Shown: in pieces, positions 3,833 to 8,668 of the stretch
Layout of the letters: the number at the start of each line of letters is the position of its first letter
Numbering within the stretch: the first letter of the stretch is position 1
Origin: Paludibacteraceae bacterium
Lineage (GTDB): Bacteria > Bacteroidota > Bacteroidia > Bacteroidales > Paludibacteraceae
Assembly (NCBI GenBank): GCA_024401455.1
Contig: JAKSLA010000010.1
Coordinates: forward strand, 1-64,000
Length of the DNA stretch: 64,000 nucleotides
Direction: 5' to 3'
The notes under the pieces: generated by a model
The model's database searches: none
What the model was told of the DNA's origin: nothing
Seen by the model: the letters and a program-made list of their open reading frames with translations, nothing else
Position numbers and translations under genes: made by a program

Positions 3833-3905
3833 ATTTATAGAGGCCCCCTTTTTTTGTGTTTTGAAGATTAAAGGTTAATTTTGTTGTAAATATTGGAATT
3901 TTTAG

Positions 3906-7088: not shown

Positions 7089-7293
7089 AGGGTTGGTGTC
7101 AATGTTGGCAATCGTAACTTTATAGGCCTTTTTGAGAAGCATAGTAGATGATAAACTTCGACTCGAATTTCAATTTGTAATTGGTTCTCTGAAATCTAAC
7201 AGGAGGAAAAAAATAGGTAATTATATACTATATTATACCCGGAACCATAACAATACCTTATAGTGTATAGTCTTCTATATTATTCAGTAAACA

Positions 7294-7818
7294 TTAAATA
7301 GAATTCTTTAATTCATTTAGAAAACGATTCCAATATTCAAGAGACTTTTGAATTGGTTCAAAACCATAAGAATGTCTGTCTCCTTTTATTTTGATATAAT
7401 ATGCATTCGTAATTACATCCATAAACATTCTTCCCGATAACTTTGCCCCATTCTTCATGAATATTGTTCCACAAACAGTGAATTTTGAGTTTGTTTGAAT
7501 CATGTCTTCAACCCAAAATTCTATGACAACATCTACCCCTTGGTAATTGATTACAAAAGAGAAAGGTTTGTTCTTGAATGCACTTAGCATCATATAAAGT
7601 GATTGTGCGTCCATTTCTGCTACTTGTTTTAATGTTGGTTCTGTCGGTCTACCAGAAGGTATTGTTGGATTGCCCATGACACTTGATTTTGCGGAATCTC
7701 TTCCATGCTTAACAATAATGTTTCTTTGTTTGCCTGTTACTTCGTCAATAGCCTCTGTTATGACCTGTTTTACTATTCTATTTAAAACACTTTCTGTTAA
7801 TCTTACTATCTGTTTCAT
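7294..7818 (-). CDS. Orphan protein with N-terminal RLTE helix tag (A)
   Basis: Unrecognised protein of 174 residues without signal peptide or membrane helix. The first ~25 residues (MKQIVRLTESVLNRIVKQVI...) form a predicted amphipathic helix that closely matches the start of the divergent gene at 7934-8467. The rest is unrelated to that neighbour. It holds a basic linker (about 30-60) and a C-terminal alpha/beta region with FVINYQGVDVVIEFWVEDM. Base composition is clearly lower in GC than flanking genes (12 of 60 G/C in 7261-7320 just beyond its 3' end, by my count), which fits acquired DNA. The neighbour gives no functional clue. Confidence 0.68.
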   Translation of the reverse strand: MKQIVRLTESVLNRIVKQVITEAIDEVTGKQRNIIVKHGRDSAKSSVMGNPTIPSGRPTEPTLKQVAEMDAQSLYMMLSAFKNKPFSFVINYQGVDVVIEFWVEDMIQTNSKFTVCGTIFMKNGAKLSGRMFMDVITNAYYIKIKGDRHSYGFEPIQKSLEYWNRFLNELKNSI

Positions 7819-7857
7819 TCTTGAATCAATATTTGTCTATAAATATCAATCCAAAGG

Positions 7858-7865
7858 CAAAAGTA
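7858..7865 (-). promoter_or_regulatory. Putative -7 box for orphan gene A
   Basis: On the minus strand this reads TACTTTTG (TAnnTTTG), about 40 bases upstream of the 7818 start. No -33 TTTG at the expected distance. Confidence 0.45.
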
Positions 7866-7933
7866 TAAGAACTTTTTTAATCTCTATGCTATTTATATGT
7901 GTAAATAACTAAAACAAAAACATTTTTTAGAAT

Positions 7934-8467
7934 ATGAAACAAAGAATTAGACTCACAGAGGGCCAACTCAATAGGGTGATTAAGGAATCTGTAAAAAGAG
8001 TTTTGAATGAGATAAGTGTAGATACAGCAATTTCTGCACATAAAAGAGCACAACGTGATATGGATAATGCTGAATTTCGTTGGGATGATTATGATGCTGC
8101 TGATAAATATGAGAAACGTCAAAGACAAGCAGATACATTTGCTAAATACGCACAAGATAATGGAGCACAATACTATCCATACGGACTAATTGGATGGTAT
8201 CAAGATGATAGTGATGGTGTTTTTGACCATTCTGAGGTTGTATTTAGCGATTCTATTGATGATGTGCCTGATGATGGCTATGGTATATACGCATTAACAA
8301 GAGAAGGAAAAGATACATATGAGCAATGGAAGGAAGATGCTTCTGCCGGATACGATTTATGTAATGGTAGAGCAAAAGGCCTTGCTCGTAGTATAGGTTC
8401 TTCAGAATGGAAAATATGGGATTATCTGACATCAGACAGTTCACTTGCGAGAAAAATACAATATTAA
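7934..8467 (+). CDS. Orphan protein with N-terminal RLTE helix tag (B)
   Basis: Unrecognised hydrophilic protein of 177 residues. The N-terminus MKQRIRLTEGQLNRVIKESV is the second copy of the tag found in the divergent gene A: MKQ, RLTE, then LNR followed by hydrophobic/basic alternation. A charged, helix-prone segment rich in Asp, Lys and Arg spans about residues 30-80. A Tyr/Asp-rich region (YYPYGLIGWYQDDSDG) follows. It ends near the hairpin at 8531. The 115-base gap between genes A and B implies shared control. No homologous family is known to me. Low GC again suggests transfer. Confidence 0.68.
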   Translation: MKQRIRLTEGQLNRVIKESVKRVLNEISVDTAISAHKRAQRDMDNAEFRWDDYDAADKYEKRQRQADTFAKYAQDNGAQYYPYGLIGWYQDDSDGVFDHSEVVFSDSIDDVPDDGYGIYALTREGKDTYEQWKEDASAGYDLCNGRAKGLARSIGSSEWKIWDYLTSDSSLARKIQY

Positions 8468-8530
8468 GCAGCATAGCACAACACAAACTCCCTATTAGGT
8501 TTAACCAACCCGATAGAGGAATGGAACATT

Positions 8531-8562
8531 TGGCTGAATCGTTCTGATTCAGCCATTTTTCT
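8531..8562 (+). terminator. Strong rho-independent terminator after orphan gene B
   Basis: Perfect 10-bp stem TGGCTGAATC/GATTCAGCCA (8531-8540 and 8546-8555) with a 5-base loop, then T5. Confidence 0.92.
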
Positions 8563-8668
8563 TGTATTCCATTGTGGTCTAAATGTATATAATTACCAAA
8601 AAATAAAAAGAATGCAAAGTTTCTCAACTTTACATCAGAAATTGCCTTATCCCTATTGTTTTTTTATT

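Follow-up and report, generated by a model that had tools for sequence, protein, structure and literature searches.

In the T-even phages, the internal proteins are highly diverse defence proteins whose sole common part is a conserved capsid-targeting sequence (CTS), according to the available text of PMC3012670. The T4 CTS is 10 to 20 residues long, the propeptide of T4 gp23 has 65 residues, and among the head proteins of giant phages (SPN3US, phiKZ) two diverged paralogues have identical first 15 residues, as described in the accessible part of PMC5694885. On the side of mobile DNA, ISApl4, of the IS1595 family, makes an 8-bp AT-rich target duplication, as given in the available excerpt of PMC12561309.

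Here, we analyzed a window (the whole 64-kb stretch of DNA, a section of contig C2 of a 3.27-Mb assembly) in which two genes, P1 and P2, lie head to head with 115 bp between them, an alpha/beta hydrolase gene on one side and a DUF4199 gene on the other (Table 1). The original prediction held that the two encode unrelated bodies behind nearly the same first ~25 residues, within an AT-rich islet. BLASTP agrees, the alignment being confined to residues 1 to 28 (43% identity, E = 6e-7), and the bodies give no BLASTP alignment at E ≤ 10 once the first 27 residues are taken off; the GC content of the islet is 33.5%, compared with 42.9% for the window. “Nearly the same” was a little strong for 12 identities within the first 26 residues, although the shared segment itself stands. 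In a profile search the similarity was strengthened and not lost: an HMM made of viral tags only, with zero window sequence, scores P2 at 38.6 bits and P1 at 22.8 bits, against a top score of 7.6 bits for 2,000 shuffled copies, and matches no other window ORF of at least 40 aa at E ≤ 1 over the 64 kb.

Whole-body relatives of P2 were found neither in 200 genomes of the family, which gave tag matches and weak body matches only, nor in the viral-contig scan, and viral contigs yielded no whole-protein relative of P1. PADLOC returned nothing for either protein. Among the body matches to P2, one in G025 was rejected as a ferritin, and those in G005 and G004 were rejected as weak and as pieces of large proteins. 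P1 matches EutQ in Pfam just at the cut-off (21 bits); this match covers the tag, and we do not believe it.

Table 1. Positions in the window of the tagged pair and of the sequence features that bound it
Feature	Position	Strand	Description
Target-site duplication, left copy	7208..7215	.	AAAAAATA; read directly; identical to 8598-8605
Left terminal inverted repeat	7216..7228	+	GGTAATTATATAC; perfect complement of 8585-8597; outer 13 bp alone fit the family end
P1	7294..7818	-	174-aa ORF, ATG start; tag at residues 1-26, ending AIDE; orphan body
P2	7934..8467	+	177-aa ORF, ATG start; tag at residues 1-26, ending VLNE; orphan body
C-terminal remnant of IS1595-family transposase	8464..8574	-	Last ~36 codons; tblastn with the intact G138 transposase; frame read to stop
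Right terminal inverted repeat	8576..8597	-	GGTAATTATATACATTTAGACC; 1 mismatch versus the end consensus GGNAAYNATATANNNNTTGACC compiled in this analysis
Target-site duplication, right copy	8598..8605	.	AAAAAATA; read directly; congener-conserved DNA begins just outside, at ~8607

The original prediction had overlooked what delimits the pair, namely inverted repeats, a target duplication, and the remnant of a transposase. The islet ends (7216-7228 and 8585-8597) form an inverted repeat over 13 of 13 bp and are flanked by a perfect 8-bp duplication. Among 4,000 simulated sequences of the same composition, 48 had a similarly spaced inverted repeat of 13 bp, and in none did an 8/8 outer repeat accompany it. 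By itself the left-end motif is weak, with 3 window matches at up to 2 mismatches for 1.12 expected; intact IS1595-type elements have ends similar to it. In tblastn, the remnant aligns with the G138 transposase at window positions 8574-8476 on the minus strand (33 aa at 90.9% identity, E = 4e-14). It shares 4 bp with P2 at their stops, an arrangement also seen in intact relatives, and no intact transposase is found within the islet. The G138 transposase belongs to the IS1595 family (PF12762, E = 4e-41; PF12760, E = 7e-9). Its element (L040, 8662-11115) is bounded by similar ends with a perfect 8-bp duplication and holds three genes: the transposase, a convergent gene whose tag is internal, and one more. 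The ends of the transposase and of the convergent gene overlap by 4 bp. Target duplications matching at 8 of 8 positions also flank relatives such as L040, L222, L225, L227, L251, L252, and L265, and some end pairs have none (L039 and L136, for example). A reading of the right end as a terminator or promoter was dropped because the region encodes the transposase tail. Judged from its sequence, the islet is a non-autonomous transposon of the IS1595 family that spans 7216-8597 and has P1 and P2 as its passengers. In this copy the passengers may act in the cell, leave with superinfecting phages, or be dead.

Relatives of the host inform on the insertion site. The same neighbours are present in G036 and G003 with the pair absent between them, and in the congener G062 the pair is absent beside either neighbour, the two lying on different contigs. 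Upstream of the DUF4199 gene, DNA conserved in three congeners begins at window positions 8607, 8616, and 8629, just outside the element; the left flank is conserved only as far as the hydrolase gene, and no base-exact empty site was found among the relatives compared. Elsewhere in the window's genome, a second C-terminal transposase remnant (contig C69, 12444-12509) lies 70 bp downstream from the gene of a 421-aa ATPase-like protein and terminates in an end of the family type. The same genome has a third, weaker tag-like gene of 325 aa (contig C48; L041, 2819-3796), with an end-like motif downstream at 3847 and no pair of transposon ends around the gene. A 273-bp element with family-type ends, an TCAGTTAA duplication, and no notable gene lies on a phage contig of G062 (L030, 7669-7941).

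The pairing of tag and transposase recurs. Scanning 84,980 species genomes for the tag alone yielded 31 stretches (L246-L276, each up to 8 kb), mostly from ruminant Bacteroidales MAGs, with the isolates Segatella baroniae B14 and Prevotella sp. MA2016 also represented. Of these stretches, 16 contain an IS1595 transposase, whole or as a remnant, 8 have an end pair with a perfect 8-bp duplication around the tag, and 27 hold at least one end (up to 2 mismatches) or a transposase or remnant anywhere within the stretch, the end motif at this tolerance occurring 0.0018 times per kb in simulated AT-rich DNA. The stretches with neither end nor transposase are L255, L258 (G062 phage contig), L273 (probably a false tag), and L275. 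A transposase of at least 300 aa adjoins the tagged gene in ten stretches (L246, L248, L249, L251, L252, L262, and L265-L268), one of them from the Prevotella isolate. Tagged genes of this IS1595 clade are mostly convergent with the transposase, and at nine distinct loci they overlap its stop by 4 bp.

Transposase searches blind to the tag covered L221-L231, L277-L306, and four PF12762 matches from the genus (L182-L185); of the 74 places listed in one of these searches, 30 loci were read. A tagged gene lies within 1 kb of the transposase in 8 of 11 close relatives versus 0 of 33 distant ones (p = 9e-7), “close” meaning at least 54% identity, a threshold chosen with the data in view; if L292 (53% over 120 aa), placed here among the distant relatives, is moved to the close ones, the counts become 8 of 12 versus 0 of 32. 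The tagged gene is lacking in three close relatives, L222, L277, and L281, the last of them truncated. In a 51-row transposase tree that includes many rows from tag-selected loci, the 19 tagged rows fall inside one clade of 23, and the tag label requires 2 changes versus 15.6 with shuffled labels. Viral and host rows are interleaved on this tree, and near-identical transposases on viral and bacterial MAG contigs (L226/L248 and L054/L270) point to recent phage-host traffic. On three viral contigs, IS1595-type ends surround a TnpB-like gene with no IS1595 transposase inside (L237, 5003-6440; L238, 9438-11553; L241, 11438-12885), and the first two of these elements have perfect 8-bp duplications; the names TnpB-like, scaffold-like, AAA ATPase, and BspA-like were assigned by eye throughout.

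The tag has a consensus of ~26 residues, M-N-K-K-x-I-R-L-T-E-S-D-L-H-R-I-V-K-E-S-V-x-R-I-L-x-E. A codon-degenerate pattern for 13 tag residues, scanned over IMG/VR, matched at least 120 stretches. The pattern fixed columns 1 to 13 of the tag alignment, and in the 111 non-redundant segments among the matches listed, columns 14 to 21, free in the pattern, are conserved too. Among the matches listed (n = 125), 106 start within 14 residues of the frame's first Met, 14 adjoin a Met further along, and the other 5 are plainly internal. The terminal E is present in 96 of 110 segments among the matches listed, and the information drops right after it from 2.75 to 0.44 bits. The terminus takes the form [LI]-x-E, with L or I at position -2 in 175 of 186 cases and E in 167 of 186. 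Host genomes rarely carry the tag: of 393 genomes surveyed in the order, 4 have it, including one doubtful case; a match in G364, which lies in a frame of 18 aa with stops, was discounted. Searched with the tag peptide, 50,697 phage records gave 3 matches (best E = 3), and plasmids gave 1 (E = 3).

Complete tagged ORFs, from loci mostly fetched for the tag or the element, amount to 199 distinct proteins, the majority encoded on viral contigs whose length reaches 412 kb, and fall into 138 body clusters with 107 singletons. The tag is N-terminal in 163 of them and internal in 36, and 8 proteins carry several. A Pfam scan of 100 tagged representatives matched 18 families at E ≤ 0.01, each through a single member and several of them short of the cut-off. 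The bodies assigned most firmly are DUF2027-Smr, NUDIX, S-adenosylmethionine lyase, and phosphoribosyltransferase. The DUF2027-Smr protein (L273, tag E = 3e-5) probably has a false tag and is still counted within the 31 stretches and the 199 proteins. The tag, weak in places, sits on NUDIX (E = 7e-20), S-adenosylmethionine lyase (E = 1e-11), phosphoribosyltransferase (E = 2e-6), and HNH (E = 2e-5) bodies, so the tag-bearing proteins cannot be one family, as the original prediction had anticipated; its description of the tag as N-terminal applies to most proteins and fails for the internal copies.

Individual loci illustrate this variety. A NUDIX hydrolase on a viral contig bears the tag (L044, 7204-7971). 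On a 252-kb contig of UBA4293, a tag-like start (RLNEREL...) precedes an S-adenosylmethionine lyase domain (L247, 3402-4247; PF23780, E = 1e-11), an activity of anti-restriction type that would fit anti-restriction cargo; the gene's neighbours are chromosomal-looking. A tag or half-tag (VKESVNRILRE type) is internal or close to the protein end in L221 (3131-4249), L242 (1774-2175), and L245 (11463-12620), being a second copy in the first two, as if a putative cleavage site had been added between domains. Consecutive proteins on a phage-type contig of G062 (C217, L036) begin with the diverged tag-like segments KLTESQLRQVIKET, HITENQLKELRKK, and LVNEDQMKLINEA, which suggests phage-specific dialects of the tag. 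In the same congener, a four-row profile gives 14 tag matches, and the contigs read for most of them (C118, C129, C185, C231, C168, C227, C211, and C217) have phage-type genes aboard.

The tag is frequent in viral records, many of which encode an S77 protease. We hand-picked 26 viral records out of the tag-pattern matches, mostly the largest, so that they are tag-bearing by selection. The tag profile matches 24 of them, with 9 to 19 copies in each of nine records above 200 kb; G209 and G214, chosen for looser tag-like starts, have 0 matches. S77 is present in 13 of the 26 and in 11 of the 12 that reach at least 160 kb, and 12 of the 13 records without an S77 match are shorter than 160 kb and could be partial sequences. 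Of the 13 S77 records, 10 place a listed tag no more than 2.5 kb from S77, where random placement predicts 1.46 and none of 200,000 simulations exceeded 8, although these are not ten independent events because several of the phages are closely related. Among the exceptions, the nearest listed tag of G204 and of G208 is more than 10 kb away from their S77 gene, and G209 has S77 with no tag-profile match. The idea that tagged genes might cluster with phage structural genes is thereby borne out for some of them.

The gene order in L206 and L207 is MCP, scaffold-like gene, S77, tagged 132-aa gene, and tagged 110-aa gene, and L208 and L209 have this order with one extra gene inserted. L206 matches the PHROG major head protein (E = 1e-11), and the phage contigs of G062 match Peptidase_S77 (E = 8e-22) and Gp23 (E = 4e-70) in Pfam, with a tail sheath match below cut-off. 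The capsid protein of the G062 phage matched 2,499 phage records, in no case over 80% of its length. Compared by eye, the MCP of the tag phages has HLIYE/AT at the place matching the T4 gp23 cleavage site, which reads SFLTE/AE at residue 65. In the viral stretches, 11 of the 125 tags among the matches listed are enclosed by a convergent end pair, compared with 2.0% of random positions; since no more than these lie within recognizable ends, most viral tags are not seen as transposon genes.

We propose, with a probability of roughly 70%, that the tag is a capsid-targeting sequence of T4-like gut Bacteroidales phages and that P1 and P2 are cargo genes riding a crippled IS1595 transposon. The tag is read as a CTS analogue because of its association with S77 and the head cluster, its [LI]-x-E ending as in gp23, and the precedent of the T4 CTS. 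By analogy, the tag would dock otherwise unrelated proteins onto the prohead core, the S77 prohead protease (gp21 type) would cut after its terminal [LI]-x-E, and the cargo would stay within the head and be delivered along with the DNA. Use of [LI]-x-E by the protease of these phages is suggested by T4 and by the MCP site compared by eye. Most likely, the tag first evolved as a phage head address; phage-resident IS1595 elements would then have picked up tagged genes, some copies would have moved out of phage DNA into chromosomes, and the window copy would later have lost its transposase except for the tail. We infer in the same manner the host range of the phages, this order of events, and any chromosomal function of P1 and P2. 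The original prediction of an undescribed system, a targeting or cargo tag on diverse proteins, is thus retained in part: the short tag and its diverse bodies hold and a cargo-type role is favoured, whereas the pair itself turns out to be the passengers of a crippled IS1595-family transposon, the kind of tag is already known from T4, and targeting is deduced from that likeness.

A variant of this proposal, to which we give slightly less than an even chance, accepts the tag as a CTS and takes the chromosomal pair as dead freight, that is, transposon-copied head-cargo genes that are inactive and decaying. Consistent with it, the transposase is down to ~36 codons, the pair is missing between the G036 and G003 neighbours and beside each neighbour in G062, and no S77 was found in G000, the window's genome, so that the tag has no local partner in this host. 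Against decay, both ORFs are open, ATG-started, and tagged, and 10 of the 31 tag stretches hold a transposase of at least 300 aa beside the tagged gene, Prevotella sp. MA2016 included. It is unlikely, in our view, that the tag belongs to transposon biology, binding the IS1595 transposase or the transposon ends, with phages carrying it since they are full of elements. The 27 of 31 tag-found stretches with a transposase, remnant, or end (up to 2 mismatches), together with the 4-bp overlap of tagged gene and transposase stop at nine distinct loci, would be expected under such a role; yet 11 of the 125 viral tags among the matches listed lie within an end pair (2.0% at random), the tagged 132- and 110-aa genes recur within the head cluster, and the distant IS1595 relatives are without the tag (0 of 33).

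Two further readings concern the tag as a protein segment. The ribbon-helix-helix core is a strand-helix-helix of about 45 residues, and the tag could be half of such a DNA-binding domain (the RLTE strand, then a helix), as in small repressors or antitoxins. P2 does match RHH_6 in Pfam (E = 0.072) and a PHROG “DNA binding protein” (E = 0.02), both weakly; the former match, with 14.2 of the 27 bits of the cut-off, is far under it, conservation stops where the second helix is expected, and the tag can be internal, repeated, or reduced to its C-terminal half and is fused to 138 body clusters, all of which makes this reading very improbable. Scarcely credible is the view that P1 and P2 are diverged duplicates with drifted bodies, in which the tag would be the best preserved part of one family: the genes are adjacent, head to head, and similar in length, but their bodies have no similarity and elsewhere the tag occurs on NUDIX, S-adenosylmethionine lyase, phosphoribosyltransferase, and HNH bodies.

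Returning to the reading of the tag as a head address, we suggest tentatively, as a possibility we hold to be doubtful, that the IS1595 clade is a phage passenger: an accessory protein, encoded beside the transposase and fitted with the head address of the carrier, would be packed in the virion and enter the next cell along with the DNA. There it would benefit the phage or the transposon, or the two together (disarming restriction is one example), and the transposon could hop out of the injected phage DNA into the chromosome. A CTS as such is known from T4; what is new, as far as we can tell, is a long, massively repeated tag in uncultured large phages and its transposon carriers, and the novelty would lie in the combination, transposon passengers with a phage-head address. 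A literature search for a capsid targeting sequence together with a transposon, or for tag-like peptides, found no description within its coverage, which mostly excludes subscription journals. One 26-residue profile would give a handle for predicting the head cargo of a large phage group which, judged by the tag, has no credible match among the 50,697 phage records, and the carriers offer a testable case for transposons exploiting the protein-loading system of a virus.

Compared with described systems, the tag resembles the T4 CTS of the internal proteins and Alt, processed by the gp21 S77 protease, in that one short address is placed on unrelated cargo. It shares its [LI]-x-E terminus with the T4 gp23 and gp24 propeptides, and the tagged genes adjoin the S77/scaffold-like/MCP cluster at roughly the place of gp67, gp68, gp21, gp22, and gp23 in T4. 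Unlike the T4 CTS, it is ~26 residues long, very uniform, present in 9 to 19 copies in the nine large records, and sometimes internal or repeated; compared by eye, the two show no likeness beyond the ending. SPN3US and phiKZ provide propeptides of head proteins cut after a glutamate in a three-residue motif, as is proposed for the tag. They differ, in the available text of PMC5694885, in having several propeptides above 100 residues and eight processed proteins, and the SPN3US motif is A-x-E versus the [LI]-x-E of the tag. The elements, for their part, are like IS1595 (PF12762/PF12760) and its transposase-less derivatives in their transposase domains, 8-bp AT-rich duplications, inverted ends, and passengers. 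Unlike the usual IS1595, the usual passenger of this clade, with members in viral contigs and in host chromosomes, bears a tag that is also found in phage head clusters.
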